Positions 4,501 to 33,935 of a stretch of 44,104 nucleotides of DNA are shown here, in pieces. The first letter of the stretch is position 1. Each line of letters begins with the position of its first letter. The DNA comes from Candidatus Auribacter fodinae (GTDB lineage: Bacteria > Auribacterota > Auribacteria > Auribacterales > Auribacteraceae), in assembly GCA_003599815.1 (NCBI GenBank), contig QZJZ01000030.1:1-44104 (forward strand), in the 5' to 3' direction. The notes under the pieces were generated by a model, which saw only the letters and a program-made list of their open reading frames with translations, searched no databases and was not told where the DNA came from. A program made the translations under genes and the position numbers.

Positions 4501-7500
4501 TCTAAGCTGGCTTTTCGGTTGTTATTTTTGTCATAAACAAACTGGCTTTTATTACCGAGCGGATCTACGGATTTGATAAGGTTATTGGCGTTATCATAAT
4601 AGAAAAGCTGAGAATTGCCGAGCGGATCAGTAACACGGATACGGTTGCCCCATTCGTCATATTCCATTTCCGTTTTGTTACCTTCAGGATCTGTTGAGGA
4701 TATCATGTTCCCGAAACGGTCATATTTGTAGCTGTAGGTTACTGCATCGGAAGTTCCGGCGGCAATGGTCTTTGAACTGATCAGGCCTTTGTTGTTATAC
4801 GTATATGTTTCTTTGTAAGTCGGCTGTGCAGGGTATGATTCGTTATCAGGGAAATAGGTATACCTTTCCTGAGCTGTAAGAGCACCGTTAAAATATGTTG
4901 AGCCATCATCGTATGTATACATTGTTTTGGTGTCTTCGGGATCAATAATCGTCGCGACTTTATTTTTACGTATCGGATCAGTGTCACTCGCGTATGTGTA
5001 TGTGGTAACTTCATTTTGATTTACAGTAACAGTATAGATTCTGTTGTACGTATCGTATGCGTAGTTCGTAACCGTTCCGTTTGGATCTGTGACGCTTGTC
5101 AGGTTGCCGTTGGCAGCCCATACTCTGGTGGTTGCTATATTAAGGGAATCTGAATCGAATCCTTTTTCTGTTGTTGAAATCAGGCGCAATGGATTTTGAC
5201 GCCCGGGCGCTTTGGGTATGGAATAGAATCCTACATCGTCTACAGAACCGTTATTGCCTGTATGATGCGTTAACTTTAATTGAGCTGAACCAGTTCCGGA
5301 TATCAAAGTAGTGGCAGTAACATTACTTTCCCTGTGAACAAGCAATCCATTCAGATACAGGGATAATTCGTTTTTCGCATCATCTAATATGACGGAAAGG
5401 TGATACCAGTTCATGTTGCTGTGACCACTGGAGGTTACTGTTAACGTTTTTGTTGCAAAAGCGGCAGTAACAGTTAATGAGTCTGGTGTTACCGGAGTCA
5501 ATTTGATGGTATGTGATCCCTCACTATAAATAGTGACCTGAGTTGTATCATTATCCGGATACTTAAACGAGAATTCTATGGTTTGGATAGCGTCCATAGT
5601 GCTTACAGGAACATTCAAATATGCAGAAGTACTGCCGAATACGCATGTTTGATCTGTGTATGTTAATCCTGACCCCGTTGCGGAAACAGCCTGGTTTGAT
5701 GCTGAATTGCTAAGGTTGCTGTCATTAAACGATAATATGCACTCACTATTTTTCTGGTTAAGATCTTCGAATTTGTATTCGGTTGTAGTTTCATATATGG
5801 AGCCGTTATCTTCATATATGGAATTATAGACGGTGTTTATTATTTCTCCTGAGGTAGTGTTGAGTGAGCCGTAAGCCATTCTGGATGCGTGTTTAGGGTT
5901 CGCATCAAACCCCATGGACATTCTTTGCTCGATGACTTGTTCGTCATCATAAATATTCTCAAGAATTCGGTTTTCGGGTTTGATTATGCGGCATAGATTA
6001 TGGGTGAGATAACCATCCTCAGAGCGGGCATATTCATATTGCGTTACCTTTCCCGCAGGATCGATTACTTTTACAAGGTTGAGAAGGTTATCATAGAAAT
6101 ATTGAACTTCGCGTTTATCGGACGAAGTAATCTTTGAGACGCGTCCTTCTCCCTCGTACTGGAAATCCACGTAACTGCCGCTTTTATTAGTGATGCGTTT
6201 AGGTAATCCATATCCATTATTATTGATATCACCTTCGTTATCATCATAGTATTCATATTTTAGATAATTGCCGTTCAGGTCTTCTGTTTCGGTAAGATAA
6301 AGTCGTTCTTTAACGACTTCACCATCTTTCATATGTTTCGCATATACAAATGTCTTTTTTAGGCCTGTATACGAATGATATACAAATGTTCCTGTTGCTT
6401 TATAAAAAACAATCTGGTTCCCGAGATAACTGGAAGATGCACCTACACCTGAGTCGGAAAAATTGGCAAGTTCAGGATTTGTCGCCAGATCCGGTTTAAG
6501 TGTCACTGTAGTATCATTATCAGAATAATAATTATATTCGATAACCGATCCGTCATATTCTGTGAGCCCTAGTACCATTGATTCTGGCTTAAGAGACTCA
6601 TTATCAGGATCATTAGCTAAATCCAAAGCAACAATGTTTGCCCAGAGATAGTAATTCAGGTTCAGCGTCCATCCGTATCCGATAAAATCGAATGATTCCT
6701 GTTGAGAAGAATAATTTCGTTTAATAACAATTGGCATGGTTCCCGGAATTTCAACATCAGTAGCTTCAGCAAGCAATTCACCGGTACGGACATCTACAGG
6801 ATCACTTGCCTGATTTATTTTGTTATTATTTGTTGGCGTTTCGGCAGGTTTAAATTCATGTCCAGCATATTGCGTACTGGTCTGTTTAGTCTCTGTTTGC
6901 TGGAAGACTACAGTGTTAGTTTGTTCCTTTTTTGTATAATTTCCAGGAGAAGAGGTATAGCTTTCTAGTATATTACCAATGGATTCCCATGAGCCCGGTG
7001 TATCCGACTTAACTGTACTGGTTACGTTATTAGATATTCCTGTTTGTTCTGCACTAGACGTTTCTAGATGTCCTTTAGATACAAGGGTTGATTCTGATTT
7101 ATAGCTGATTTTTTGTTGAATATGTCCGTTGGATGATCGGTGAACATCATAGTTTGATGAACTCGAAGAAGAAGAGGAAGATCCTTGAAAACCATTAAAT
7201 GAATCTTGATAAATATATGTTGTGTTTAAATTTATCGATGGTCTTCCACCATTAATTTGTTCACCGCTACCATTTAAAATAACATACCCAGTTCCTGTGG
7301 TTGTTATGATTATATAACCTGTACCAATAGAGACGCCTGCTTCACTTTCGTTAGTAAGTCGTTTAGGTATTAAAAAAATGTCATTTTCTGTTCCTGCTTC
7401 TTGGAAATGATTGTAAATGAAAGTGTAATCAACAACGTTATCGTTGTCAAAAATGCCTAATAAGCCACCTTGGCTATCAACATAATTTGTATAATTTGCT

Positions 7501-9931: not shown

Positions 9932-12900
9932 TTATTGCATCTCAAAATACCAGATCCGATGCTCTGGCGTATCGTTATCATTTATAAACGTCTCTTCATA
10001 TGATAAGCGGCTATTCTTGAAGTCCAAGCCATCCAGGACGCCATCTGATTCAGTTGTCGCATTAGTTATTGGTGATCCTGACAAAGGAAGAATTTCACTA
10101 TTAGCAAAATATATATTCGAGTCGTATTTACCATCGTCATTGAGATCTTTATCGCTGGTATATGCGATATCAACCCCAAAAATAGATTTGATAGAGCTAC
10201 TAAGGTGAATAGGTGATTTTTCACTTTCGTTTTGAGTGTCTGTCACTTGGTGTAAAGAGACAAATAGTGAGGTTTGATAATCAATATAAATGGTGACACG
10301 GTGCGGCGATGTGTTGTTTGTATAAGGAAATTCATCGGGAAGGGAAGAAAAACCAGAAATCCAATATCTTGTGTCACCACTTCCCCATTTTGTTTGTATA
10401 CCATTTGAATTGCAATGTACTACCAACCAGTATGTTTGATCTTTATGGATTTCTATGTCGTTTTCGAATTGAAATGTTTCTGTACTTGCCGTCGAGGTTG
10501 TTGCAAAGGTTCTTGCGTACGTTTGCTCCAGTTTCTCTCCCGGATAATCACCATCATTATCCAAATATAGTGCAATTTCTACAATGCTTGAGGCGTCAAC
10601 TCTAGCTATATACAATTTTACTTGGTTTGCTATACCATCATACTGTGCGGTATATGGTCCGAATGCAAATAAATTATCTGCCATAAAATTATTGGGCGAC
10701 GTACTTGGAATCTGGCTGTTTCCTAATTGTGTCTCAGACACATTGAATGGAGGTGGATTAAATTCAAGAGAATAGATATCAGAATTGATGTAGTAATTTT
10801 CTTCCTGATAATTCTTAGGTAACTCTAAAGTGTAACCTTCAAACAGTATTTTTGCTTTATTATCATCGTCAATATAAATAGAAGGGTTATCTGCAAGAAT
10901 GAAATTTTTACCATCATTATCAGTTAAGTCCAGCGTTAAACTGTAATATTCAATACCTGTGGTTGAATAATCCTGCGTTACCAACATCACCAGCTCGCCG
11001 AGTTCATCTGACGCGATGATATATTTAGTGTTTCCAATCTTTTTACAATCAGGATTATAGAATGATTTCTGGTAATATTCCTGGTTCCCTTCAGCATCAA
11101 GAAGCGTAAATTCTGCATCCTCAAAATAATGGTTGAAATTCAGGTCATAAAGCACATTTATGATGTTTTCACTCTGGCTGGATTGAATAACCAGATTTCT
11201 TGCGCCGTATCTATAAGATGCAAAAACAATGCTGTCATTATCAAACCAAGCAGGTTCCATATCGTTTACAAAGGTATCTGTAAACTGAGTTAAACCACCA
11301 TCATCCCATTTCCAGAGATTTTCGGTATAATCATCGTCATTGCTGGTAGAGGAGAGTTTGGTAGAGCAAAATACCAGTTCCGGCTCAGTTACAGAATCAG
11401 GATTCCATGATGGCGCTGCACAATAGTTCCCTTCGAAAATGCTGTTTTTGTCCCATTTATAAATCTTAATGGAAATGGACCCAGTCTTTGAGTTATTTGC
11501 AAGATCTGTTGCAGTTACTTGTAACGTATATGTACCTGAAGTTATTGATTCATTGTCCAGATCAAAAGAACCAAGGAATCCATTTATTACAGGAATGGTA
11601 GAATTGGGAATTGTAGCAGGGAACTCATTACTCTGACTATCAATGAGTTTAAGCTGATAAGATCCAAATAAGTCATCAGAGACAGTACCGAAAACAGAAA
11701 GTGTTTTGTAGCTGGAACCGCTATCATTATCTTTAATTGTACTTATAAGATGTCCGGTAACAGGGGAGGAAATCATTACATAAGGATCAGTCGAATCGTT
11801 GTTTTCAAGTTTGGTGGCGGTAATGTATAGTGAAGCGCAGTCCAAACTTCTTTTACTATCATTATCTAAGGAATAAACGCGAATTGTTTCAGGTACTGTT
11901 GTTAATGTATATTTTGCTGAAGTTTGTAATGTTGTGGCAAAGAATTCTGTTGCCTGAGTATCATTATCATAGGTTGCCAGTTGATATCCGAATACGTTTT
12001 GATCAAGCGGTGCTTGCCAGGAAAGCTGGATCGTATTATCGTTTAAAACGTTATAAGTAAGGTTGGTTGGTGCCCCTAAAGTGATATTTGTTGATTCGTT
12101 TTCGAATTCAGTGTTAATGATATACAATATCGTGGCTGCGGAGTTGTTGTCATTATCAGGGTCTCCGGAGACGTCTGCGCTAACTGTAATATTCACAGAA
12201 CCTTTTGTATTGGCTGGAACTGTAAAAATTTGTGAATACGAGTATCGTGCATAAGGCAACAATTTGAGCGTTGATCCTTGACTGCTGTTAACGGACATAG
12301 TTATGTTGCCCACGATAGTTTTGGATAAGTTGTGTATTTTCTGTTGGATATAGATTGTCTGCGCTTCAGTTGATGATAAGATTGCGTTGTTTTGAATTAT
12401 TTCTCCGTCACAGTCGAGTAAGCGGAGATCTTTGTTGTAAATAGCAATATCTTTAATTCCTGAAGAACTGTACTCTGCTTCTTGCCATACTCGGTTATCA
12501 ACTAATACAGCATATTTGTCTTCGTCGGATAGAGTAAACGGTATAGTCTCTGATACGATCTCTGTTAATGATCCTGTAGTGTTGGTTTTGCTATCAAATG
12601 ACACAAATTTCAGTTCATCTCGTTTTTTTACATAAAAACAGATGTCATTCCAGTTCGTACTGATATCAACATCAATACATTGTTGAGAGATCGAAATATT
12701 GGAAATCACAGGTATCGGAGCAGAATTTTCATAAATGCTTTTCAATATCAGACCGGTAAGATAAGGATCGCTTAAGCATGACCCTTCGTTATCTATTAAA
12801 GATTCAAGAGCAGAGATGGAATCATTTTCATTTTCTGAAATTGCGCCGTTTACTGTTGCATTTGTGGAGTTGTATCTGCGTAACGCAGATGTAACGATGG

Positions 12901-13651
12901 CTTTTTCCTGAATAGGACTATCATTATCAAGCATAGTTGCTAATTGTGTCTCAAGAAAGGTTTTCCCATCATTAGTAAGTTCTTCTATTTCTGATACTGT
13001 AGGTAATGGGGTACTCCCAAAATCTAAAAAATTTGAATCGTATGTTATAGGGAAAAGAGATTCCAGATAATCGTTATGTTCTTTCAATGTTTCATAGACA
13101 TAGGCTGTAATAATAGAACTGTCTTCCCGGTTTTCCCAGACAGACCCATTGAGTGCCGGATGAAAGGTTGACCATCTATATGTATCTTGGCTTGATTCAG
13201 GATCTTTTGATGTGTGTGATATGAGTACGCTTAATGCTTTTTGGATGACTTCATCGTTCATGTAGCCTGCTGAAAGAAGTGCGCGGACAGCCCAAATTGT
13301 ATCTGTAGGATTGGTTTTATAACCGTTATTTTCTCCCCAGCCGCCATCATCATTTTTGAAGGTCATTAGTTTTTCCAGAAGCAGGTCACAATTCATGCCT
13401 GCATGAGATAACACTACGATCTGACGTGCTATATATTCGGTATTGTTAAATTCTTGGGTCTGGATCCAATTTAAGGATTTTTCCAGTTTGGTATCAAGGG
13501 TTTGAACCAATCCTTCATTGGATAGGATATCTCTTGCCTGCATTAAAGATTCAGTAACAATCATTGTTGCAAGAGGAGAAGTAATGCTATCGTTATCAGA
13601 TTCATAGTTAGAATCATAGATAACTGTATCATTGTCTGTGTCTCCATACAT
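9932..13651 (-). CDS. 5'-truncated giant secreted repeat protein paired with the RHS gene
   Basis: The frame stays open to 13,804, but everything beyond about 13,650 is antisense to comM, so only about 1,239 residues are native. Counted from the Met at 13,651, residues about 25-320 are helical toroid repeats of the prenyltransferase/squalene-cyclase type ([11 protein letters not shown]). A CARDB-like domain lies near 420-515, an FN3 domain near 525-615 ([17 protein letters not shown]) and an Ig-like domain near 620-735. A TolB-like beta-propeller part follows ([23 protein letters not shown]), then a beta-sandwich near 965-1125 and a final segment with a calcium-loop-like DLNDDGKYD. There is no signal peptide, although the domains are typical of exported proteins, because the 5' end is missing. 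The stop lies 35 bases before the RHS start. The protein is rich in Asn-Asp-Ser/Thr tetrads. Its role is unknown; an accessory surface or display function for the RHS protein is a guess from gene order. Confidence 0.75.
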
Positions 13652-14804: not shown

Positions 14805-17801
14805 ATGACATCGAATCTTATTGAATCAATAGTAGAGTCTGCGTCATCATGGCTTATTTCAGGTTCACAGTTAAGCGGTAAGACAGGTGTCCTTCTTGGA
14901 TCCATAGCGCGTCTTGTTGCCTCAGAAAAAACGCAACCGGAGAATATTCTTTTTTTGCCCTGTACCGCAGGGCAAACATCTGCCGTTAGACAGAGACTGT
15001 CTGCCCTGACACCATTTCAGTACGGATATGGGCCGTTACATATCAGCAGATGCGGTGATTTCGCCCGCCGGATTGTCCTGAAAAACGGTATATATCATAA
15101 CGAGATAACACACCCACTGCGTGTCGATCTGTTTCAGTCTTCTAAAAAATATCTGGTGAAGCATATACTTACACAGTGCGCTCTGCCGGATTCGATTGGT
15201 TCCGCACACTCCCAATCACGGTTGGTTGAAGCAGTGGTTGACGGCATAACTTTTCTTGAAAATACAGGTAACATACCTCCAAAGTTTAAGCAGGGCAGTG
15301 AGATGGACTGGTTCAGGGAAGTTTTCGACCGGTATCGGCAATTATGTACAGAGCGTGGATTTCTGTATCGTGAACGTGCTTTGGATATTGCCACTAACTT
15401 GTTGATGTCAAAAGAGAAACTGCTTTTTCCACCTATACGTTTTATATTTGTGGACGATTATGAGAACCTGACACCGCAGGAATACGCTTTCATCCAAGCG
15501 TTATCAAAATATAAAGAGGGAACTGCCTGCATTCTGGCTGGCAATCCGGCGAATAGGATGCTGGCGTACAGAGGGAGTGTTGTTGTCAGGCATGCCAAGC
15601 TGATAAGTGATATGCAAATTCCGGAAAAACAAGTAGTGCAACTACCGGAAACACGTCGCAAATTTGCTCTGCAGGAAAGCCTTCGATGTCTTATGAACAA
15701 GGCGGGGCTGGAAGATGACGAACCCGGTTTATCTCTGGTTCCCGACGAGGACCAATCGGTACATGCCGTTTTTCTTGAACGCAGATACGATGAACCTGTA
15801 TTTATTGCCAGCAGGATACAATCGTTACTGCGTGACGGATATTCCCCCCCGGAGATAGCTGTCTTTCTGCCAAACTTATCCAAGGATGCGCACTTGTATT
15901 ATACGGTATTGACTCGAGCCGGAATACCCTGTCAGGTTCAATCGGGCACTGCATTGCACCTCACTGCGGTGTATCAGCTTGTTGAATGTGTGACGGCTCT
16001 CATTTTTGATCCGGATAATGACAACAGGGCGCGCCAGTTTGTACGATCAACTGTGTTTGGCGTAAAACACGACGAAATCGGACGTATGGAAATGATGGCA
16101 GGACGGGCACACCTGAGTCTTTTTTATGGATATGTACGATATGCGGATCATATATCTGATCGCGTTGTTCGCAAGCGGGTTATGGATGTACTGCTTTTGA
16201 TGCGAACTATGCAAAATAATCATGGGAATGTGGCGTTCCATGTATTTATTGAGCGATTGTTCAGTTGCTGTGACCTTTTTCGTGCGGAGATAATGAGTAA
16301 TTTAATAGAAGCCAATGCCGCTCAGATTTTGCTGTCGAGCTCTCAATTTTTTAGCGGATTCAAAACGGCGCTGGATGGAATTGAGCCGTTGCTAGATGAA
16401 TATGAGACCTTTAAACAATGGATTATACAACACTCCGTGCAGGGAATATCAGTGTCTGATCCCCCTGCAGTGAGGATTCTATCAGCGAATTCGGGTGAAT
16501 CGTTTTGTTTCCGTGCTGTTTTTGTCTGCAATGTGAACAATGCCGCGTTTCCTGAAAATGAAAGTGTGTGTATACCTTTGATACTCCGTAATGCCTCTAT
16601 TCGTGCCGATCAGTTTGTCGTTTCATCCAATAGTATCTACACCAATATAATAGCACGTTGTACAGATCAGCTTTTCCTGCTTTACAATCGTGAGGGAGGC
16701 GAAATGGCGCCTTTTTTTCAGTGCCTGAGCCGGAAGCCCTTTGCGAGAGTTTGTGAAAATGGTTCAGTTTTCTGTGTGTACGATAGGCCGGAGTATCTTA
16801 CTGATGAAAAATCACGTGTGCTATACATTCGGAAGTCCTTGCTTAAAATGAACGAGCCGGAGAAAGATCACATTGTCAAAGAAATACCAATCCCTTTTGA
16901 TAATTTTAGCATTAAGAAGCTGGCTTTTTTTCAGCGTGTTTCGGTGCCTGTCGATTATGTTTTCTCTGCTACTCGTTTTGATGATTATTTACGATGCCCA
17001 TGCCTCTTTTATTACCGCCATCTGCTCGGTATCGATACATTTGAAGAAACTGCGCGGGCATTATTTGGGAAACTGATGCATTCTGTTCTGGAAATCCTGC
17101 ATGGCACGTATCCGCACATTGCTGTTTTGCCCGAAGATCAGCGGGAAGATCTGCTTTTGTTCTGTCAGGGGATAATAAAGCGTATCCTGCCTGCTCATAG
17201 CGGGATAAACGATTTTACCAGAATGATTATAATGTCGCAGGCGGTTCATTGTATTGAGCGGTATCTTGATGCGATGACAGAAGAACTGCCGCTGAATATT
17301 GTTGCTGTTGAAAAGATCGTGAATTTCAGGCTAGATGATATACCTTTTACCGCAAAAATCGACCGGATAGATACACATGCATCTGGCGGCGTACGCATTA
17401 TTGATTATAAAACCTCTCTAACGGATGAGCATACAGAAATCAAACTGAAGAACATGGTAATGCCGACGGGCAAAGAAACCAGAGTGCAGTTGCCTGTCTA
17501 TTTTTTCGCTGTGCGGGAATTGATGCAGAATGCTCCTTCAGAACTGGGTATATTTTATTTGCAGGCAAAGTCAAAAGAAGGAGATCATATTTTTCATAAA
17601 GTGCTGTTGCAAATTGTGTCTGATAGTAACCGAAAAAGCCTGAGCAGGGATGAACTGGAAAGTATAAAGCAGTTTATACTTTCTGAAATTCACACTATGC
17701 AGAGCGGATTTTTCGTTATGCCTCCGCCAGCTCAGAACTGTCGTGATTGTGACTATGACTCTATATGCAGTCTGAGGAGGGGGTGTAATGCCGGCACTTA
17801 A
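14805..17801 (+). CDS. addB: AddB-like degenerate UvrD-fold / PD-(D/E)XK nuclease with Fe-S motif
   Basis: A 998-residue protein with the layout of AddB, the second subunit of the AddAB double-strand-break resection complex. The N-terminal P-loop is intact (GSQLSGKT, residues 20-27). The helicase-like motifs are eroded: motif II is DDYEN (217-221) instead of DEFQD, and the motif III region reads GNPANRMLAYRG (246-257). The C-terminal RecB-family nuclease has YLRCPCLFYY (C731), GKLMH (H759), KIDRID (D853) and IIDYKT (D867, K869). C979, C982 and C988 with C731 match the 4Fe-4S staple of AddB, Cas4 and Dna2 nucleases. No strong ribosome binding site precedes the ATG. The 3' end overlaps the next gene by 14 bases, so the two subunits are probably coupled and form a complex. 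Sequence divergence is large, so addB means AddB-like. Confidence 0.75.
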   Translation: MTSNLIESIVESASSWLISGSQLSGKTGVLLGSIARLVASEKTQPENILFLPCTAGQTSAVRQRLSALTPFQYGYGPLHISRCGDFARRIVLKNGIYHNEITHPLRVDLFQSSKKYLVKHILTQCALPDSIGSAHSQSRLVEAVVDGITFLENTGNIPPKFKQGSEMDWFREVFDRYRQLCTERGFLYRERALDIATNLLMSKEKLLFPPIRFIFVDDYENLTPQEYAFIQALSKYKEGTACILAGNPANRMLAYRGSVVVRHAKLISDMQIPEKQVVQLPETRRKFALQESLRCLMNKAGLEDDEPGLSLVPDEDQSVHAVFLERRYDEPVFIASRIQSLLRDGYSPPEIAVFLPNLSKDAHLYYTVLTRAGIPCQVQSGTALHLTAVYQLVECVTALIFDPDNDNRARQFVRSTVFGVKHDEIGRMEMMAGRAHLSLFYGYVRYADHISDRVVRKRVMDVLLLMRTMQNNHGNVAFHVFIERLFSCCDLFRAEIMSNLIEANAAQILLSSSQFFSGFKTALDGIEPLLDEYETFKQWIIQHSVQGISVSDPPAVRILSANSGESFCFRAVFVCNVNNAAFPENESVCIPLILRNASIRADQFVVSSNSIYTNIIARCTDQLFLLYNREGGEMAPFFQCLSRKPFARVCENGSVFCVYDRPEYLTDEKSRVLYIRKSLLKMNEPEKDHIVKEIPIPFDNFSIKKLAFFQRVSVPVDYVFSATRFDDYLRCPCLFYYRHLLGIDTFEETARALFGKLMHSVLEILHGTYPHIAVLPEDQREDLLLFCQGIIKRILPAHSGINDFTRMIIMSQAVHCIERYLDAMTEELPLNIVAVEKIVNFRLDDIPFTAKIDRIDTHASGGVRIIDYKTSLTDEHTEIKLKNMVMPTGKETRVQLPVYFFAVRELMQNAPSELGIFYLQAKSKEGDHIFHKVLLQIVSDSNRKSLSRDELESIKQFILSEIHTMQSGFFVMPPPAQNCRDCDYDSICSLRRGCNAGT

Positions 17802-20800
17802 CCCTGAACAGAAACTCATTGTTACTGCGCCTGCCAATCAGCCGCTGCTTATCACTGCGGGAGCAGGCACAGGTAAAACCCGTACGCTTATTGAGCGGTT
17901 TGTGCATCTTTACACAACGCATAAACTTAAACCGGATTCTATTCTTCTGCTTACATTTACACGTAAAGCGGCGGCTGAGATGAAAGACCGTATTCTCTCC
18001 ATGTGCGACCTCAGTCTGGCTGATCGTGAGCAACTCTGGGTGCATACCTTTCATTCTTTCTGCGCACGCATATTGACTGAAGAAGGCCTTGCAGGCGGGC
18101 AAGATAGCTTGGAGGCGATTGATACGGTAGAAAAACAGTTGCTGTTTGAGGATGTTTATACTGAACTGATGCAGTTACAGGGTGCATTTTCTTCTTTGGT
18201 TAATGAATTGTATATTATTAATCATATTTCTGGTTTCGAAACCTTTATGAATTTTTCCAGCACATTTATAGACAAGTTACGAGATCAACTGATCGAGCCG
18301 GCTGAATTGAAATCATGGATAGATAATGGCGATACGAACAGTCGGTCAATCCTGTTAAAACGCATTCTTTATATGCTTTACGTCCGATTTGAGGAGAAAC
18401 TGGAAGAACTTGGTGCGAGGGATTATCCGAAACTCATTATGGATGCCGTTAAGCTGTTGTCGTCGAATGAAGCGGTCAGGAAGAAGTATCGTGATAAGTT
18501 TGTTTTTGTGATGGTTGATGAGTTTCAGGATACAAACAGCGCTCAGTTTACATTGTTGAAATGCATTGCCGCGGAAGGCATAACCAATACCACTGTGGTT
18601 GGTGATCCCCGGCAGTCAATATACCAGTGGCGTGGGGCTGATCCTTCCAATATGAACTGGTTTCTGCAGACACCCGGTGTGAAGAAGGTGGAGCTAATCA
18701 GGAATTACCGTTCATACGGTGAGATTCTTGACTGTGCTCATTACTTACTGCAGAGTAACCCGCATTACAGAGGATATCGGAAACTTATTCCTGAACAAAA
18801 ACAGTATAAGGCAATTGCACCGGTCATTCATCTGTGCGGGGATTATTCGGTTGAACCATCGTTTGTGGCATCTCATTGTGCCTCATTGATTATGCGTGAA
18901 GGCTGTAAGCCGGATGACATTGTCATTCTTTTCAGGAAAATAAAAAATCAATCCGTACGTTATGAAACCGAACTATCTGCTTACGGACTTCCGTATTATA
19001 CCAGCGGCAGCGGTTCATTTTTTCAGCGTTCTGAAGTTCAGGATCTTTTTTCTTATTTCAGGGTTATCGCCGATTCGTTTGATAATGAAGCATTAATCCG
19101 TATTCTGATGCAACCGCCCTACAACATAGGTGACGCAGATATGTATGAGATGGTCCGACAGGCGAAAAAGGCTCATTCCTGTCTTCTGGAAATGCTGAAT
19201 ACCGAATCATCGTCTGATTTTTGCAAACGATTGCACTCATTTATTACGAGGATGGTTCGTATTACTGACTTAAAAAAATTGTTTTTCAGCATTATTCAGG
19301 AAACATATTTCGCAGAACTTCATTTAACTGAACCGATTTCTTCGGCGACATACAAGGATAGCGCCGCGCGATTTCTTGCGATTATTGAATCGTTCCAGAA
19401 ATATCATCAAGGGGAAGGGATATCACGGTTTGTCGCTTATTTTAAAAATGCCGCTTTTTCGTCTGAAGACGATGAAGAGTTGGAACGGATACAATCTCAA
19501 GGGTGCATACGGCTGATGACCTTACATAAAGCAAAGGGTTTGGAATTCCCTGTTGTTTTTCTTGTTGATCTGAAAAATTTTTATGATGGCAAGTCCAGTG
19601 TGGAAGCCGAATTCAAACAACAGGTGAGAGAACCTTTTCTTTGGGATGAACAGTCCCGCTCGTTCAGGTTTAAGAATACCGAGGAATACGATGCAGTTAA
19701 ACGAAACATCGTTGGCGAGCGTATGGAAGAGCTTTGGCGCCTTTATTATGTGGGAATAACACGGGCACAAGATCAGGTATACATTTCAGGGCGCGGGCTG
19801 GATACTATAAGGGCCGCTTTGGCATTATCTTCGAATGGGTTTATGGAGCATGACAGCATACCGCTAGTTGAGTACCAGCCGGAATCGGATACCTGCATGC
19901 CCAATATACATTCAGGAGTTGAAATCATAAAAAAACAGATTGAAACTCCCGTCACTTATCCACAATATAATGATCGGACGTTAGTTCTGAATTGTTCAAC
20001 ACTGCATACTTTTGTGGAATGCCCATATCGTTACTATCTTAAAAACATTGTTGGTGTTGCTGAATGTCGTGATAAGAAGGAAGATAGTATTCAGCATGCC
20101 GTGCTGGGAACGATTGTGCACGAAACGATTGAAGAATATCATGCGTTAGAAGGAATACTATCTATTGAGGAAATAGCTCTTCGAAAAATCGATGAAAGCG
20201 GAATGCCTGAATCAGTTTTACCAAAGGTTCTTGTGACTGATGCATTAGATTATTATACACAAACAAATCTGGCTTCAAAAAATGCGCAACCATTTGAATC
20301 AGAATATAAATTTACATTGATTGAGAAAATGCACGACAAAAATGTTGTCATAAATGGGGTTGTCGATAGGTTGTATCACTCTGATGGGCAATGCCGCATT
20401 GTTGATTTTAAAACAGGGATGCGAGGTACTGTTGATGATTACCGATTCCAAATGACGTTATATGCTCTGGCGTGCCATCGTTTATTCGGAGCAAAAAATG
20501 TCGTCGCTGAATTAGTCTTTTTGCATCAGAAGCGAATTGAAACGTTTGAAATTTCAGTGAACGATATAAGGGCTTTTTATGCATCGGTGATGGATATTGC
20601 GGACCGAATCCTGAGAAAAGATTTTTCCCCCTGTAAATCCGATGCATGCTGGTTTTGTGGTTTCGCGTCGTGTGAATATCGAATTGAAAGCCAGCCGTTG
20701 CAGGTAAATAAATGGCATGATGAGGAATCGTATTATTCATTTTATTACGATCTTGTTCAGGCTGAACAGGATTATGTTATTGAACAGGTATCGGCCGATA

Positions 20801-22374
20801 CACGGGTTAAAATTCAATTTGACAGTGTGCGTCCGGCTGAAAGCGGTTTTATAGTCAAATACAACCGTGACCCGTATGGATTACGATTACATGCCGGAGA
20901 TTTTATTCAGCTTGTATCATTGGTTGCTGATCCTTTAACGGTTCAGGTGAATGAAGTGGGGCTATCCTGTTTTATTCTGGCAATAAACATAATACGTGAA
21001 TGGAGAGACTATACTCATTGTGTATTGTCTGCAAACCCGTTATCATTTATTCGTATGAAAGACCATTTATTTTCGTTTATGGTTTCTCAGATGCCATTAA
21101 AGAACATAGTTCTAGAACATTCGCTACCTGAATTGGTACCCGCTTTACCCCATCATGATGGAAGCTCGCTGGATTGCTATCAGCAATATGCCGTTGAATG
21201 CGCAAAGAGATGTAGTGACTGCCTGATAATACATGGCCCTCCGGGTACTGGAAAAACCCTTGTTATCGCTCATATCGTTAAAAATGCCATTGATAGCGGT
21301 AAGAGGGTACTGGTATCCGCTTATACTAACCGCGCTGTTGATGGCATTATACTTAAACTCCTTGATTTATATGCGGATAAGGAAAATATTAGGAATGTGT
21401 CCGCTCGACTTGGAAAAGAATCTCTGGTTCACCCTGATGTGCGCGGGTGTTTGATTGATGAAGAAATGAGCGATGAGCGCATAGCTATGGATTTGTTGCA
21501 TAAGAATCTTGTTGCAGTCACTTCTGCAGGAGTTCGGGATCAATTCTTCTGTGAGTTTTTCGACATTGCGGTAATTGATGAGGCAGGGCAGATGCCTGAA
21601 CCTTTTGCATTAGGTATTGTGAATCATACCAGGTCGGTTATTTTGGTTGGTGACGACAATCAGTTGCCGCCGGTAATCGTCAGCGATTATGCCCGGAAGA
21701 ACGGCTTGGAAGTAAGCCTTTTTGAACGGTTGAAAAGTTTTCTTGAAAAACGGCGTCCTGAATCGGTTATCATGCTTCAACGGCAATACCGGATGAACGA
21801 GACGATTATGCGGTTTGCTTCAGATGAGTTTTATGAAGGGAAATTGCAGGCTGGTTCCGATGCTGTGGCACATCGAATGCTCTCTAATATTGATATATCA
21901 CGGTGTGGTAAAAAGTGGGTTTCTGAGGTTATCAAACATGACAAGAATATTGTAATGATAGAATTAACTGATTGTTTAAAAGATAGTTGCGATATTGTTG
22001 AGTGTATTTCTGAAATAGTAGTCCATGGTTTTCTGAAAGTTGGCATTAATCCGTCACAAATAGGTGTGCTCTCACCTTTCAGGGAAGAAGTGCAGGCTCT
22101 TAGCCGATCTTTGAGTATTGATGAGCTTGATATAGATACCATTGACCGTTTTCAGGGGTCAGATAAAGACGTGGTTATTCTTTCTCTTGGCTCTGATACG
22201 TCCGCACACAGCATGGATCGAAGAAGGATCAATGTTGCATTAACGCGGGCAAAATCAAAATTAATAATTGTCGGTAAAAGACCGGATGAATTATCATCGT
22301 CATTATATACGGGTTTATGCTCTTATATTCAGAAAAACGGATGTGTTATAGAGTGGCGCAAAGGGATACTTTAG
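17788..22374 (+). CDS. Triple fusion: UvrD-type helicase, RecB/Dna2-type nuclease and Dna2/UPF1-type helicase
   Basis: A 1,528-residue protein starting at an ATG with AGGAGGGGG upstream, inside the end of the addB-like gene. Residues 1-665 are a UvrD/AddA-type SF1A helicase: GAGTGKT (25-31), DEFQD (244-248), GDPRQSIYQWRG (272-283), HKAKGLEF (580-587), VGITRAQ (655-661). Residues about 730-965 are a PD-(D/E)XK nuclease: C745 in VECPYRYY, H778 in GTIVH, D860 in VVDR, D873 and K875 in VDFKTG, and C954, C957 and C962 as the Fe-S trio. A beta-rich segment follows (about 970-1115). Residues about 1125-1528 are a complete SF1B helicase: GPPGTGKT (1150-1157), DEAGQ (1264-1268), GDDNQLPP (1288-1295), QYRMN (1333-1337), DRFQG (1453-1457), VALTRAK (1483-1489). 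Residues 730-1528 alone have the layout of eukaryotic Dna2. All motifs of both motors look intact. Confidence 0.88.
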   Translation: MPALNPEQKLIVTAPANQPLLITAGAGTGKTRTLIERFVHLYTTHKLKPDSILLLTFTRKAAAEMKDRILSMCDLSLADREQLWVHTFHSFCARILTEEGLAGGQDSLEAIDTVEKQLLFEDVYTELMQLQGAFSSLVNELYIINHISGFETFMNFSSTFIDKLRDQLIEPAELKSWIDNGDTNSRSILLKRILYMLYVRFEEKLEELGARDYPKLIMDAVKLLSSNEAVRKKYRDKFVFVMVDEFQDTNSAQFTLLKCIAAEGITNTTVVGDPRQSIYQWRGADPSNMNWFLQTPGVKKVELIRNYRSYGEILDCAHYLLQSNPHYRGYRKLIPEQKQYKAIAPVIHLCGDYSVEPSFVASHCASLIMREGCKPDDIVILFRKIKNQSVRYETELSAYGLPYYTSGSGSFFQRSEVQDLFSYFRVIADSFDNEALIRILMQPPYNIGDADMYEMVRQAKKAHSCLLEMLNTESSSDFCKRLHSFITRMVRITDLKKLFFSIIQETYFAELHLTEPISSATYKDSAARFLAIIESFQKYHQGEGISRFVAYFKNAAFSSEDDEELERIQSQGCIRLMTLHKAKGLEFPVVFLVDLKNFYDGKSSVEAEFKQQVREPFLWDEQSRSFRFKNTEEYDAVKRNIVGERMEELWRLYYVGITRAQDQVYISGRGLDTIRAALALSSNGFMEHDSIPLVEYQPESDTCMPNIHSGVEIIKKQIETPVTYPQYNDRTLVLNCSTLHTFVECPYRYYLKNIVGVAECRDKKEDSIQHAVLGTIVHETIEEYHALEGILSIEEIALRKIDESGMPESVLPKVLVTDALDYYTQTNLASKNAQPFESEYKFTLIEKMHDKNVVINGVVDRLYHSDGQCRIVDFKTGMRGTVDDYRFQMTLYALACHRLFGAKNVVAELVFLHQKRIETFEISVNDIRAFYASVMDIADRILRKDFSPCKSDACWFCGFASCEYRIESQPLQVNKWHDEESYYSFYYDLVQAEQDYVIEQVSADTRVKIQFDSVRPAESGFIVKYNRDPYGLRLHAGDFIQLVSLVADPLTVQVNEVGLSCFILAINIIREWRDYTHCVLSANPLSFIRMKDHLFSFMVSQMPLKNIVLEHSLPELVPALPHHDGSSLDCYQQYAVECAKRCSDCLIIHGPPGTGKTLVIAHIVKNAIDSGKRVLVSAYTNRAVDGIILKLLDLYADKENIRNVSARLGKESLVHPDVRGCLIDEEMSDERIAMDLLHKNLVAVTSAGVRDQFFCEFFDIAVIDEAGQMPEPFALGIVNHTRSVILVGDDNQLPPVIVSDYARKNGLEVSLFERLKSFLEKRRPESVIMLQRQYRMNETIMRFASDEFYEGKLQAGSDAVAHRMLSNIDISRCGKKWVSEVIKHDKNIVMIELTDCLKDSCDIVECISEIVVHGFLKVGINPSQIGVLSPFREEVQALSRSLSIDELDIDTIDRFQGSDKDVVILSLGSDTSAHSMDRRRINVALTRAKSKLIIVGKRPDELSSSLYTGLCSYIQKNGCVIEWRKGIL

Positions 22375-25042: not shown

Positions 25043-27166
25043 GTGACAGCTATACACCGGAAACCGATTATATTCCTGTGGATGTGTGTCACTCTTTCTT
25101 TTTTTCGCTGTTTTGTCACTCCTGATACGGATCCTTTCTATATCTTATCGTTCTTTTACATAATCTCTGTGTTTTTTCTGTCCGGATGGTGTTTGTTTTC
25201 GTGTTTTTCTGAGTATATGGAAGCTGGTGATGGTATTGAGCATTTTGTTGTCAGTATTCTTTTATCTGTCACTATAACAGGATTACTATCGCTTACACTT
25301 GCCTGTGCATATATATTTTCGCTGTTCGGCGTATGGGCGGGAAATATGACAGTGCTTATTTGTGCGTATGTTTTTCATAGAAAATCGAATAAAAAATTAT
25401 TTCGGTCGTTCTCCATCACAAGGCGGTCAATCGCATTTCTACTGTTCCTTGTTTGTTTCTCGCCGTTATATCTTCGTCCCATGGAATGGATTATTGGGTT
25501 GCGTGACCCGGGCGTATATGCCAACACCGCTAAGTCAATCGCAATAAATGGATCGTTATCTTTTAGTAATGATCCGACTAAATATATTGACCCGCAAACG
25601 AATGCCTCAATATTTGCGTATCGATACGAAAAGGACTCAATGTTATTGCCCGGATATTATATTAAAAACTTTCAGTCCGGGTTGATTCAACCTCAGTTTT
25701 ATCATTTATACACTGCTTTGCTTGCAGTCGGATACTCGGTTTTTGGTTTTTCAGGAGTATTATGGCTGACACCGCTTCTTGCTTTAGTGAGCATGACTAT
25801 GTTTTTCTTTTTCATAAAAAGATTTACGAACTAGAAGTCAGCATATTTCAGCTTGGGTATTCTGTTGATTTCCGTGAATCAAGTGTGGTTTGCCCGTTAT
25901 TTTAACTCTGAGTTGCTGATGCAGTTTTTTGTATTCGGGTCAGCGCTGGTTTTAATGTGTAATGAGCTGAACCAATATTTTCGGTATATTGGAGCCGCGG
26001 TTGTTTTAGGATCCGCCTTTTTTGCCAGAATAGACGCTTTTCTTTTTTTGCCGGGGATACTTGTACTTATCCCGTTACTTTCCGAAAAGCGTCAACTTGA
26101 TAAAAGATTGATTTTTGTACTTGTGGCTGTTTTATTCTTTCTCCTTTCGATTGTATATGGAATTTCATACTGCCCGATGTACATTAAACCGAGGTTATTG
26201 GATCGCCTGAATAACGGGCTGTTTATCTGGTGCGGCGTTTTTCTGGGCGCAGGCATTTTCTGGAGCTATTTTCGAGGGCTTGGCAATACGATGGAAAAGG
26301 CAATCGGTTACGGTCCCTTTGTTTTAAATATTTTAAGCGGTATTTTGCTTTTATATGGATTATTAAAACGCAGATTCGTGGGTTCTGTATGGATTAGTTT
26401 ATATTTTCCGCATGCTGCTATTGCCGCTGGACTGGCAGGATTGGCGATCATTGCATGGAAAAAACGAAAAAACATGGGTGAGGAACGGATGATACTCATT
26501 TTTATGACCCTGACTTTTTTTGTGTGGTCTGTCATATTTTTGAGGGATCCTCAGATCCAGCCGGATCATTTCTGGGCAATCAGACGTTTTACAGCGTTTT
26601 ATATACCTTTTTTACTCTTTGGATTTGGTGCAGTATTTGGCCTATCTTATAACGGCTTGAAAATAATAAAAATTATGTTTCTCAGCATATTTTTCTGTTT
26701 TGCCGGATGGTATGCGTACCGCCATATACCCCAGTATAAACTTCACGGTTGCGGTGGAATACAGCAAACAATAAATACAATAAGCGAAGTTTTTCCTGAT
26801 AAATCAACAATATTTTTTATTGAGCCGCCTCCCGTATTATTTATTACGCCAATTTTTTTTAATACCCTGCATGAGAAGGAGAAAACTATCGTTCCTGTTG
26901 CGCATCCTACTCAATTTTATGCAGGGGATGCCGGTGTTGAAGGCATTGTACGCAATGAGCTTGAACAAGGAAGGCGTACGTTTATTGCATCCTACAAAGA
27001 CAAATATGCCGAATGTAATTTTAAGAATCTGCAGGCGAGGCATTATAAAACGATACCTATCATTCTTCCTTATGCTGAAATGACTAGAGATAGGCTCCCT
27101 TTCCGGATGAGAGAATCGTTTTATTCTATGATAATTGATGAACTTTTCCTGACTGAGAAGAATTAG
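25043..27166 (+). pseudogene. GT-C type membrane glycosyltransferase interrupted by an in-frame TAG
   Basis: Two consecutive open stretches, 25,043-25,834 and about 25,853-27,166, are in the same frame. They are separated only by the TAG at 25,832-25,834 and join into one protein of 707 positions. The first part has several membrane helices and the loop GLRDPGVYANTAKS, resembling the acidic first-loop motif of GT39/ArnT-like transferases that use lipid-linked sugars. The second part continues with further helices (VLGSAFFARIDAFLFLPG) and a soluble C-terminal end. The start is GTG with AAAGGA seven bases upstream. The second half has no ribosome binding site, so it is unlikely to be a separate gene. 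Either a nonsense mutation, a sequencing error or stop-codon read-through explains the structure. Substrate unknown. Confidence 0.8.
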
Positions 27167-29727: not shown

Positions 29728-30638
29728 TTTCGTTCAAGCCTGTTGATAAAAGAAACGATTTTTTCGCAGATTATGTCTTTATCATAGTCTACAGGGATGA
29801 CATGGTTCGAACGAGTAACCCACATGATCTCTTTATCTTTTGAGCTGATAGAATTATAAATGAATTCAGTTCCTGTACTGCATACTACTTTGTCTTCTTT
29901 GGTATGAATTAGTAATGCGGGCTGATGGATGGAAGAAAGCGTTGTGCTGATTGCCTGTGCCATATCGAGCATGGAATGCAGTGGTTTGGTAGATACTGCG
30001 TCATAGCAGATATGTTTGTTGCGCTCAACAGGGTCATTAATATTCACATATGCCTCTGATTTCCAAACATAAGGGACAAAAGGAATAGAAAATTTGACGA
30101 GTGTTCCGGGTTGTTTCACATAAAAGTGATGACTGCTGAGACGAAAAAAAGGCGCTATTGCTGTTAGTCCCGCAATGTCATCATGCTCTGCTGATAATTT
30201 CAGGCTAAGCAGTCCGCCGAGAGAGAATCCGACAATATAGACCCGTTTATATCTATTGCGCAGAGCACTATATTCTTCAAGAACAGCAGTATACCACATT
30301 GAAGAATCTGAATGTTCCAAATCAGCAGGCCTCAGCGCATGGCCGGGCAGGAGCATTCCGCGTACTGTAAAGCCCTGTTTGTGTAACGACTTGGCAATAT
30401 ATACCATTTCCCGGGGCGTACTGGAAAAGCCATGTATTAGCAAAACAGCCGTGTTTTCAGAGGCTTCAAACAAAAAAGGATTCGCTTCAGGATAGATATC
30501 TTTTAGATTTGGCGCATTGGAATGACGTATCCGCCAGATTTTTACCGAATAGATTAGATACAGGGTTATTAAAAAGATGAGAAACGCGGCGAATATGAAT
30601 AAAAAAAAATTTTTATGGAACAAGAATAATCTTGCCAA
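29721..30638 (-). CDS. Membrane-anchored alpha/beta hydrolase (carboxylesterase/monoacylglycerol-lipase type)
   Basis: A 305-residue protein with an N-terminal membrane anchor (FFLFIFAAFLIFLITLYLI) and a hydrolase domain. The oxyanion-hole motif is LLIHGFSSTP, the nucleophile elbow GFSLGG, the acid lies in HTKEDKVV and the His in SNHVI. These match carboxylesterases of the Est30/monoacylglycerol lipase group, acting on short esters or lipids at the membrane face. The start is TTG at 30,638, inside the last codons of the upstream alcohol dehydrogenase gene (26-base overlap), so translation is probably coupled. No ATG alternative exists before the anchor. Confidence 0.85.
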   Translation of the reverse strand: MARLFLFHKNFFLFIFAAFLIFLITLYLIYSVKIWRIRHSNAPNLKDIYPEANPFLFEASENTAVLLIHGFSSTPREMVYIAKSLHKQGFTVRGMLLPGHALRPADLEHSDSSMWYTAVLEEYSALRNRYKRVYIVGFSLGGLLSLKLSAEHDDIAGLTAIAPFFRLSSHHFYVKQPGTLVKFSIPFVPYVWKSEAYVNINDPVERNKHICYDAVSTKPLHSMLDMAQAISTTLSSIHQPALLIHTKEDKVVCSTGTEFIYNSISSKDKEIMWVTRSNHVIPVDYDKDIICEKIVSFINRLERNY

Positions 30639-31650
30639 ATTGTTTTCCTTTTTCCATGCGTTCGGTGGCAGTGATTACGTCATCCATGGTATGGATCGAA
30701 TCGATAACCGGTTTCATTGCGTTGGTGTTGATTGTCTTCAGTACCTGTTGTAATTCGGATATGGACCCCATCGTTGATCCGTGGAGTGCAATCTGTTTCC
30801 AGTATAGTGAACGCAGGTCAAGCATCGCTTCCGGTCCGGTCGTTACGCCGCATAGCACAATGGTGCCGCCTTTTTTTATTATATTCAGGTTTGACTTCAT
30901 GGTTTCCGCGCCGACCGCGTCTATGATGAGGTCAACGCCGGCGGATTCCGTGTAGTCGGCAATCCAGTCGGCTATAGTATCCTCTTTGTAATTGATGGTT
31001 GCGTGAGCGCCGATAATGGATGCTTTTTCCAGCTTTGCATCAGATGATGAAGTCACAATCACATGTGCTCCGGCAGAGAGTGCGAGCTGTAAAGATGCCA
31101 GTGCAACGCCTCCACCTATTCCGTGTATTAAAACTATCTGTCCGGGAGATAGTTTTCCCTGTGTGAACAGCATTCGCCATGCGGTAAGATAGGTTAAAGG
31201 AAACGCCGCTGATTCCTCAAAAGAAAGGTGCTCCGGCTTTTTTAGTACATTTGCCGCTGGAACAGCCGCATATTGCGAAAATGTGCCCTGTCGGGTGAGC
31301 CCCATCAGTCCGTAATACGTGCATAAACTATGTTCACCTCTACGGCAGGCGGAACATATGCCGCAGTAGGTACCGGGATAAATGATAACTTCATCGCCTA
31401 CTCGCAGGTTGTGCAGTTCGCCAACCGACAGTCCGATTTCACGGATAACTCCTGACAAATCAGAACCGAGAATATGCGGAAACGTAAGCGCATTACCGGG
31501 GCGTCCCATACGTACCCATATATCGAGATGGTTTAAAGCAGTTGCCTTTGTTTCTATAATTACTTCGTCAGGAGAACAAACCGGATCGGGGAGTGATCCT
31601 GTATTTATTACTGATGGGTCGCCGTAACGTTTAATAAAACATGCTTTCAT
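30613..31650 (-). CDS. Zinc-dependent alcohol dehydrogenase / quinone-reductase family (MDR)
   Basis: A 345-residue medium-chain dehydrogenase. The catalytic domain has the GSDLSGVI segment and the structural-zinc cluster CGICSACRRGEHSLC with all four cysteines. The Rossmann part has IHGIGGGVALASLQLA (nucleotide loop) and IDAVGAE. Lys or Arg selectivity residues are not clear enough to choose NADH or NADPH. The start ATG follows AGGAGGTTATGAATA, a strong ribosome binding site. It forms a two-gene operon with the downstream hydrolase. The substrate alcohol is unknown. Confidence 0.9.
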   Translation of the reverse strand: MKACFIKRYGDPSVINTGSLPDPVCSPDEVIIETKATALNHLDIWVRMGRPGNALTFPHILGSDLSGVIREIGLSVGELHNLRVGDEVIIYPGTYCGICSACRRGEHSLCTYYGLMGLTRQGTFSQYAAVPAANVLKKPEHLSFEESAAFPLTYLTAWRMLFTQGKLSPGQIVLIHGIGGGVALASLQLALSAGAHVIVTSSSDAKLEKASIIGAHATINYKEDTIADWIADYTESAGVDLIIDAVGAETMKSNLNIIKKGGTIVLCGVTTGPEAMLDLRSLYWKQIALHGSTMGSISELQQVLKTINTNAMKPVIDSIHTMDDVITATERMEKGKQFGKIILVP

Positions 31651-31693
31651 TATTCATAACCTCCTGATGATTATTATTTTTGCATACTAAAAT

Positions 31694-31722
31694 TTGACAA
31701 ATCAAAAATCATGGGGTATATA
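31694..31722 (+). promoter_or_regulatory. Near-consensus sigma-70 promoter
   Basis: TTGACA at 31,694-31,699 (perfect -35), 17-base spacer, TATATA at 31,717-31,722. Transcription would start near 31,729 and run toward the small cysteine-rich gene at 31,811, leaving a leader of about 80 bases. Confidence 0.7.
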
Positions 31723-31770
31723 AATATTAAGAAAAGAGATCATAAAGAACGAACATTCCTCAACAAGAGA

Positions 31771-31807
31771 CTTCCTGGCGGTTAAATAAACCTTTTGCCG
31801 GAGGAAG
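31771..31807 (+). promoter_or_regulatory. Leader hairpin covering the ribosome binding site
   Basis: CTTCCTGGCGG (31,771-31,781) can pair with CCGGAGGAAG (31,798-31,807): six pairs, a small internal loop, then three GC pairs. The 3' arm contains GGAGG, the ribosome binding site of the ATG at 31,811, so folding would block initiation. Confidence 0.5.
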
Positions 31808-31810
31808 TCA

Positions 31811-31984
31811 ATGTATTGCCCCTATTTATTGAAAAAAGGACGCGTAACCTACAAGTGCCATTTTTTCTATTCGAACCTTAATTTCTTGAAGGCTGTTTTA
31901 TTCTGCAATACACCTTTGTGTTCCCGCTTTTGTCAGTCATCAGCTCTTTGCAGAAGAAAAAGAAGGACTGCCGCATCAGCATAA
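31811..31984 (+). CDS. Small cysteine-rich basic protein (57 residues)
   Basis: An ATG with GGAGG at good spacing opens a 57-codon frame starting MYCPYLLKKGRVTYKC. Six cysteines lie at residues 3, 16, 32, 37, 41 and 47, and the tail is basic (CRRKRRTAASA). The first half is hydrophobic and aromatic. It sits in a gap between two minus-strand genes, with its own promoter at 31,694 and a hairpin over the ribosome binding site. No family is recognised; a small metal-binding or nucleic-acid-binding protein would fit the residues. The arginine-rich end and lack of a known domain leave the alternative that it is a leader or non-coding RNA locus. Confidence 0.55.
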   Translation: MYCPYLLKKGRVTYKCHFFYSNLNFLKAVLFCNTPLCSRFCQSSALCRRKRRTAASA

Positions 31985-31996
31985 GTTTTTTACGTA

Positions 31997-33505
31997 TTAT
32001 CTACGCGAGCTTGACTGATACCTGAGTAGTTTTTGTTCACTGCTTGTCAACAGCGTTTTCACGGCATAGTCTTTCCACGCGTCCTCAAATTCTGCAAACG
32101 ACATACTTAAGACTGATTTAAACACTTCATCATTAGACAACTGTTCTCCAAATAATGCCAGTATTCGATGTAGTTTGTCCAAGCCGTATTTATCAATAAT
32201 AAAAGCGACAATAAAACATGATTCTTCATATGCCAGTAAGATTTTTTCTATATTTGACGGATTACGAATAGCATTGTTGAGTGCATGAAACGGAAAATAA
32301 GAATTTTTAAGCAGTGCTTTTTTCAGGTAGGCATATTCCGGTTTTTCACGCGAAAAGTATTCGGCTATACCTTCATTAAGCCATAGAGGAACATTATGCT
32401 CAGATATGCGGTGTACAACAAGATGTGTATATTCATGAAAAATTACGTGTTCAAGAGATTCAGCTCCGCCGGGCAAGAGGTTTTTGTTGTCTACGGGTAT
32501 ATGTATTTTACCGTCGTAAAGCCCGCCCGCGAAATGGGGGACATCCGTGCTGATAAAAAAAGAATCCGGTTCCGTGAGAATAATGACAACCGTTGATTCC
32601 GGATAATAAGAAAACTTTGCGCCGATGGTGTCATATGCTTTTTTAAGGTAGGAGGTTATCTCACGTAACCGTTTTTCAGGGATAGTATTGTCGTGGTGTA
32701 TTGCGAAAATATCACTGTTTTTTGCGTCTAAACTATCATAAATGGCGTATTCACGATTTAATCGGTCGTATAACTGCTGAAACAATTCATCGGATTCGCC
32801 AGTTTTCGCCAGTTCATCCCAGTATATTTTTGCTTTCGGCAACTGGTGTTTGTTGAACGCGATGTTACCCAGATAAAAAAGCGCTTTCGTGTGGTGAGGT
32901 ATTTTCATTAATGCAAACTGAAATTTTTCCTCGGCACTGCTGATATCATTTATGGATAGATACTCAATCCCCCAGAGAACATAAAGGTCTGCTATATCAT
33001 TGAGATATGCCCACACATCAACAGTGCCGAAAATGTCCGGCCGGCTCATAATAAATTTATGTATGTTAATTGCCTGAAGCCACTCTTTAGACTGATATAA
33101 TTGTTGGGCTTTTCCCCGCAGGATAGCTCGGTAATTATCGGTGATGGGCGATACCGGGGTAATGGTATATGCTTCTTCAATAACGGATAGAGCGGTGTCG
33201 TACTTGCCTTGCGAAGCCAGTTGTACCGCATAAGCGTTCAGTACAGAGGCAAATGACTGATGCAATGCGTCGTTATCAGGGTCAAGCATTTCACATTTTC
33301 TGAATAGTTCAATTGCGGCAGGATAGTTATTCGAATCAATATACGATTGGATAGACCGAAGGTAATCGTTTATTGTAGCAACGGTTCCTTGTTCTGCGTT
33401 TTCATCAGGCATCCTGTATGTTTCAGCATGCGCCGTCATAGATATCATCATTATTGCATACAGGATACCGGACAAGCAACGCTTCATGAAATATAACACA
33501 TTCAA
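31997..33505 (-). CDS. Exported TPR protein with gluzincin (HExxH) peptidase domain
   Basis: A 502-residue protein with a signal peptide (about 27 residues, ending AHA), TPR-type helical repeats from about 40 to 265, and a peptidase_MA-like metalloprotease domain. The zinc site is HEYTH (H357, H361), with the third ligand expected in WLNEGIAEYF some twenty residues later. The N-terminal repeats include the usual alternation of small and large residues (ALFYLGNIAFNKHQLPKA). GAAAGGGG is close to the first ATG, which I keep; a second in-frame ATG six codons later gives a tighter signal peptide. It probably acts in the periplasm; substrate unknown. Confidence 0.85.
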   Translation of the reverse strand: MNVLYFMKRCLSGILYAIMMISMTAHAETYRMPDENAEQGTVATINDYLRSIQSYIDSNNYPAAIELFRKCEMLDPDNDALHQSFASVLNAYAVQLASQGKYDTALSVIEEAYTITPVSPITDNYRAILRGKAQQLYQSKEWLQAINIHKFIMSRPDIFGTVDVWAYLNDIADLYVLWGIEYLSINDISSAEEKFQFALMKIPHHTKALFYLGNIAFNKHQLPKAKIYWDELAKTGESDELFQQLYDRLNREYAIYDSLDAKNSDIFAIHHDNTIPEKRLREITSYLKKAYDTIGAKFSYYPESTVVIILTEPDSFFISTDVPHFAGGLYDGKIHIPVDNKNLLPGGAESLEHVIFHEYTHLVVHRISEHNVPLWLNEGIAEYFSREKPEYAYLKKALLKNSYFPFHALNNAIRNPSNIEKILLAYEESCFIVAFIIDKYGLDKLHRILALFGEQLSNDEVFKSVLSMSFAEFEDAWKDYAVKTLLTSSEQKLLRYQSSSRR

Positions 33506-33602: not shown

Positions 33603-33935
33603 TTAGAATATGGCGACGGTTTCTTCGGAATCGATATACAGAAAACGTCCGCAATTCTGGCAGACAGACATATCATCACTATAACTTAATAATGAATGCT
33701 GACTTGTTGGAAGATTAATAAAACATCCCTGGCAAAACCCGCCATTAGCGCGGACAATTGCGTCACCGTGTCTATGGTACAGCTTATAAAAACGTGTGAG
33801 AGTTTCAGTTGGGGTTTGTGTTTTGAGGAAAATAATTTCGTCTTCAATCTGTTTTCGTTGTGATTCTGAATTACATTTTTTCAAATCATTCTCATAACTC
33901 TGCAGTTTTACAAGAACTTCTACATTTGCTTTCAT
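33603..33935 (-). CDS. Short coiled-coil/C4 zinc-ribbon protein (zf-RING_7 type)
   Basis: A 110-residue protein: a charged helical N-terminal half (LQSYENDLKKCNSE, QIEDEIIFLK) and a zinc ribbon FCQGCFINLP ... VCQNCGRFLYI, with the two CxxC pairs typical of the C4 zinc-ribbon family (DUF164-related). Usual members are about 240 residues with a long coiled coil; here only a short helical part precedes the ribbon. The family is thought to bind nucleic acid or ribosome-associated partners, but function is not settled. CGGAG lies before the ATG. Confidence 0.8.
   Translation of the reverse strand: MKANVEVLVKLQSYENDLKKCNSESQRKQIEDEIIFLKTQTPTETLTRFYKLYHRHGDAIVRANGGFCQGCFINLPTSQHSLLSYSDDMSVCQNCGRFLYIDSEETVAIF

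Follow-up and report, generated by a model that had tools for sequence, protein, structure and literature searches.

Leaders that sequester the Shine-Dalgarno (SD) sequence include, besides those of toxin mRNAs, autoregulated ribosomal-protein leaders and RNA thermometers. Among the toxin mRNAs, a type I toxin mRNA studied in Helicobacter is a close parallel to the leader reported here, since in it, too, the SD in front of a small gene is reported to be sequestered by a stable hairpin (PMC6733600). The present gene differs from SD-sequestering toxin, thermometer and ligand leaders in that its protein is not toxin-like in sequence, its leader shows no thermometer behavior in the folding model, and it has no Rfam family match above the cut-offs. 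Lineage-specific families of small proteins from uncultured bacteria have been collected in the GMSC small-ORF catalogue and as the FESNov families, and our gene resembles their members in being short, conserved within one lineage, and kept beside the same gene (PMC11364881, PMC10849945). Small zinc-finger proteins of prokaryotes, represented by the C(P)XCG micro-proteins of Haloferax and by Brz of Halobacterium, offer a second likeness, namely a length under 70 amino acids and several cysteine residues (PMC11241148, PMC2253796). Unlike those Haloferax and Halobacterium proteins, however, the protein described here is bacterial, lacks a CxxC or C(P)XCG motif, and is only a putative metal binder.

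A small cysteine-rich gene and its neighbors

The window, that is, the whole 44,104-nucleotide stretch of DNA that was analyzed, is one whole contig (C23) of the 3.54 Mb genome of Candidatus Auribacter fodinae (G000). A first-pass annotation had described a promoter, a leader hairpin, a GGAGG sequence, and a 57-codon frame, arranged in that order on the plus strand between minus-strand genes, and we found all of these elements to be present (Table 1).

Table 1. Coordinates of the small gene, its leader, and the adjacent genes in the window
Feature	Position	Strand	Basis or remark
ADH-like gene	30613-31650	-	left flank of the gap
Intergenic gap	31651-31996		both flanking genes on the minus strand
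Candidate sigma-70-type promoter, TTGACA-N17-TATATA	31694-31722 (TTGACA 31694-31699; TATATA 31717-31722)	+	read directly
Leader hairpin holding the ribosome-binding site	31769-31809	+	folds; 5' arm identical in G001
Shine-Dalgarno GGAGG	31800-31804	+	read directly; 6 nt before ATG; identical in G001
57-aa Cys-rich basic protein, coding sequence including stop (ATG at 31811)	31811-31984	+	G001 homologue; pN/pS
TPR-repeat gene encoding a Peptidase_MA_2 domain	31997-33505	-	Pfam; tail-to-tail with small gene
Short zinc-ribbon (Zn_ribbon_9) protein gene	33603-33935	-	Pfam; third member of block kept in G001

A homologue search with the small protein, as the annotation had recommended, gave one strong non-self match when run in six frames against 59 genomes. 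This match (E 4.0e-12) lies in genome G001, from another genus of the same family, and its identity across residues 1-55 is 45%. The window and G001 frames align without gaps and neither contains a stop. Their 72 nucleotide differences fall at codon positions 1, 2, and 3 in the proportion 16/21/35, with pN of 0.32 and pS of 0.90. Of 55 residues, 25 are kept versus a null mean of 15.4; when the 72 differences were redrawn at random 5000 times, a fraction of only 0.0002 of the draws kept at least as many residues, and 94% acquired a stop. Each of the other five frames carries stops in both sequences. Because this conservation is specific to the frame (pN 0.32, pS 0.90, no stops), we regard the frame as protein-coding and discard a chance frame or an RNA gene. 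Judged by its conservation, then, the frame is a genuine protein gene, and the proposal of a real gene is borne out by the frame, start, position, and leader hairpin that persist in a second genus. The sign by which an RNA gene was to be recognized, a broken frame beside a kept promoter, appeared in reverse, with the frame kept and the promoter less conserved.

The two proteins are 55-57 amino acids long, start identically with MYCPYL, and share C3, C16, H17, C32, C37, and C41, giving the cysteine spacings C-x12-C, C-x15-C, C-x4-C, and C-x3-C. The six cysteines first described do occur in the window copy (positions 3, 16, 32, 37, 41, and 47), but the sixth is not a conserved position, which leaves five Cys and one His common to both copies. 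Similarly, the label Arg-rich suits the window copy only, and the trait shared by the pair is a basic tail of Arg or Lys. No CxxC pair occurs in either protein, and hence neither has the two CxxC-type knuckles that define a zinc ribbon or C(P)XCG protein. Searches of Pfam and NCBIfam with the small protein returned 0 matches, PHROGs gave one weak match (E 0.3, to the relative's protein only), and the best hit of a PDB profile search was unconvincing (E 0.23). A structure model of the small protein had a low-confidence mean pLDDT of 60.2, and reading by eye revealed no obvious membrane segment. Given the five shared cysteines, the Cys-adjacent histidine, and the basic tail, the small protein plausibly depends on metal or thiol chemistry and may bind nucleic acid. 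Metal binding is read here from the Cys/His pattern, in proteins with no CxxC pair, family match, or confident model.

In the window, 12 nt separate the stop of the small gene and the end of the TPR/peptidase gene. In G001 the small gene also stands tail-to-tail with a TPR/peptidase homologue that is 35% identical (E 2.2e-84), the stops being 6 nt apart, and a homologue of the zinc-ribbon gene (51% identity, E 5.7e-34) adjoins that peptidase gene. The far side of the small gene differs between the two genera, with the ADH-like gene in the window and, in G001, a gene that we take from its sequence to be metE-like; the best ADH homologue of G001 sits on a different contig. Therefore, the conserved unit is a three-gene block. 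G002, from a third genus of the family, gave no zinc-ribbon match at E <= 1e-5, and the peptidase gene has at best a remoter counterpart there, at 30% identity. No comparable small frame was found in G002, including beside this peptidase match, although missing assembly could equally explain the absence of the block. A leader peptide or upstream-ORF attenuator is expected to have a same-strand gene just downstream, but in both genera the gene that follows runs convergently. We also found no own-strand terminator-like site after the small gene.

Other large genes were seen elsewhere in the window. A very large minus-strand frame (822-9896, about 3024 aa) has RHS repeats, DUF6531, and a transglutaminase-like domain. 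On the plus strand, two adjoining large genes (14805-22371) pair UvrD-type helicase with PD-(D/E)XK nuclease domains, and the second of them (about 1527 aa) has an extra C-terminal AAA_11/AAA_12 helicase part, by eye an unusual fusion. Two further frames, of about 1238 aa (9938-13651, minus strand) and 414 aa (25919-27160, plus strand), had no Pfam match at E <= 1e-5.

Distribution of the small gene

Across the 59 genomes, 31 gave some match to the protein at E <= 10, and beyond the two copies the best E was 0.0048, with matches that were partial or interrupted. A DNA search with the intergenic gap gave matches at E <= 1 in 45 of the 59 genomes, those besides the window being short (best E 0.0018, 41 bases). 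A two-row profile built from both copies reached E <= 0.01 in 4 of 44 genomes of the phylum, comprising the two copies and two others at E 0.004 and 0.005, and it matched a second place in G000 (E 0.007). All three extra matches are partial, and after viewing their loci we read them as chance. When the profile search was extended to 384 genomes, 3 were matched at E <= 0.001, namely the two copies and G283 (E 7.7e-4), whose match is partial, contains an internal stop, and was likewise put down to chance. The N-terminal pattern ATGNNNTGYCCNTAYYTN occurred at 18 places in 14 of 43 genomes; translation of all 18 gave a Cys-rich frame only at this gene in G000 and G001. A peptide-pattern scan of 84,980 species yielded 30 stretches, of which 1 was a relative, the G001 gene itself (record 'Bacterium isolate R3-B46'), and the same scan of viral contigs yielded 83 stretches and 0 relatives. 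Tblastn against plasmids and phages gave none at E <= 1, and a literature search found no paper naming R3-B46 or JAHDNF in the library covered. On this sequence evidence the gene is, so far as seen, most likely restricted to one bacterial family, in which it occurs in two genera. None of the collections searched returned a convincing match to the small-protein family; it belongs to a kind already known, orphan small proteins with leaders for translational control.

The leader hairpin and the candidate promoter

The leader of the small gene is about 82 nt long and contains a 41-nt hairpin, GACTTCCT...AGGAAGTC, composed of an outer helix, GACUUCCU/AGGAAGUC, and an inner helix, CGGU/GCCG. The G001 leader likewise forms a two-helix hairpin around the ribosome-binding site (CUUCCU/GGGAAG and CAGG/CCUG). 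Identical in both genera are the 12-nt block AGAGACTTCCTG of the 5' arm, the loop ATAAAC, the GGAGG, and AATGTAT at the start, while the 42 nt preceding the hairpin are just 40% identical. A conserved helix that includes the SD, the hallmark of SD-sequestering leaders, is therefore found in both genera, as seen in two sequences only. The covariation that had been proposed as a check is seen in part: read by structure, 2 of the 4 inner pairs have changed on both sides with pairing kept, but this is a single comparison of two sequences in which MAFFT places a gap in the 3' arm.

In short segments, shuffled sequences folded as well as the native one in 3 of 200 cases for the window and in 0 of 200 for G001, but a longer, 101-nt window segment was unexceptional (44 of 200 shuffles as good, z -0.77). 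By fold energy, each of the two leaders is equaled by 1 of 28 background leaders, for which one simple criterion was applied to the window and to 12 kb of G001. Together, these folding models make it likely that the hairpin exceeds chance, and a conserved hairpin at the ribosome-binding site is well supported.

The promoter claimed upstream is present as a sequence, TTGACA and TATATA being separated by a 17-nt spacer, but promoter-like sites in the surrounding 9.5 kb occur at chance frequency (29 versus 27.4 expected). The candidate is outside the listing of that scan because the scan demands a terminal T, which its TATATA does not have. The aligned G001 site, TTGTAT-N17-TATACT, agrees with it at 3 of 6 bases in the first box and 4 of 6 in the second, at equal spacing. 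A promoter for the small gene is plausible, yet it is the weakest part of the anatomy, not rising above chance frequency. Separately, a promoter-like site for the ADH-like gene was seen on the minus strand (31700-31673, TTGTCA-N16-AATAAT, 10/12), overlapping the candidate -35 box of the small gene back to back.

Probable control of translation and competing explanations

The explanation that we favor, at about even odds (roughly 0.5), is that of a genuine, family-restricted small gene whose translation is lowered by the hairpin and restored when something relieves it, and whose product works with metals or thiols. The stable leader hairpin would engulf the ribosome-binding site and keep translation low, and a protein, possibly the gene's own product, or a trans-acting RNA that binds or unfolds the hairpin would raise it. 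The basic product of 55-57 aa would probably use its five shared Cys and one His for metal binding or thiol chemistry. Translation of the small gene is probably regulated; repression by the hairpin, its relief, metal binding by the cysteines, and any link to the peptidase are inferred. In a far more speculative form, which we consider improbable, the two proteins would represent a novel family of small RNA-binding proteins that sense metal or redox conditions through Cys/His and act on their own leader stem-loop, a sensor and switch in a single gene whose product, by its metal or redox status, would open or clamp the hairpin over the ribosome-binding site.

Several candidates for a trigger or a wider regulon were considered. 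Rfam 15 gave 0 matches in the window above the curated cut-offs, and its best sub-threshold match (E 1.2) reached 14.3 bits where 45 were required. The idea that other genes share the leader as a regulon was rejected: searched as a strict sequence pattern in the three genomes of the family, GACTTCCT-N8-30-GGAGG occurred at 3 places, two of them at this gene, and a control pattern also occurred at 3. The G001 hairpin (L023 1677-1710, minus strand) has ACAGGAU in its loop and inner part, which resembles the CsrA-site consensus. Since the window copy lacks ACAGGAU, the reading as a CsrA site was dropped.

The most serious competitor, which we consider possible though clearly less probable than a regulated gene, accepts a real small gene and denies that its hairpin is a switch; the hairpin would stabilize the mRNA or have another conserved role, and translation would be constitutive. 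Consistent with this view, pairing of the GGAGG is not extreme: compared with 18 background genes that have a recognizable SD, its mean exposure in the two leaders comes 7th and 9th from the bottom. In addition, accessibility of the start codon is near one half (0.47), and no trigger emerged. Strong masking of the GGAGG is accordingly only moderately supported. Against it stand the unusual stability of the two hairpins and the conservation of the 5' arm, which pairs with the SD region and is better preserved than the rest of the leader.

A type I toxin-like gene, in which the folded mRNA restrains the peptide and an antisense RNA silences it, is improbable. The antisense RNA would be the convergent peptidase transcript or would start on the minus strand within that gene. 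The leader does cover the SD, the convergent gene is 12 nt away with no strong terminator between, and a promoter-like minus-strand site is present at 32181-32152. That site, however, is one of 3 found versus 2.4 expected, and in G001, where the scan found 4 sites versus 5.1 expected, the plus strand inside the peptidase gene from 4900 on, which points toward the 3' end of the small gene, has none except 5472-5499 at the very end. Moreover, the protein is Cys-rich and basic, with no membrane segment obvious by eye.

Temperature had been suggested as a trigger for the hairpin alongside metal and a small RNA, and a small gene under an RNA thermometer is an even less likely explanation. The position of the hairpin over the SD would suit a thermometer, but in the ViennaRNA model the probability that the GGAGG is unpaired moves between 20 and 75 C only from 0.27 to 0.34 in the window and from 0.40 to 0.49 in G001. 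Because exposure barely shifts in either genus, the GGAGG of the window copy staying covered throughout, a thermometer is unsupported and temperature was set aside. The poorest explanation, that a decayed gene or a non-coding RNA happens to contain an open frame, could appeal to the silence of the family libraries about the small protein and to its presence in two genomes only, but it can hardly be reconciled with frame-specific conservation across genera, the kept start and Cys positions, and the stops in all five other frames.

Although the family libraries searched miss the small gene, both it and the leader hairpin that belongs to it have been conserved across genera. Should its product act on its own leader, the locus would constitute a compact and testable sensor-switch. 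As it stands, it represents a further orphan small-protein family with a clear anatomy.
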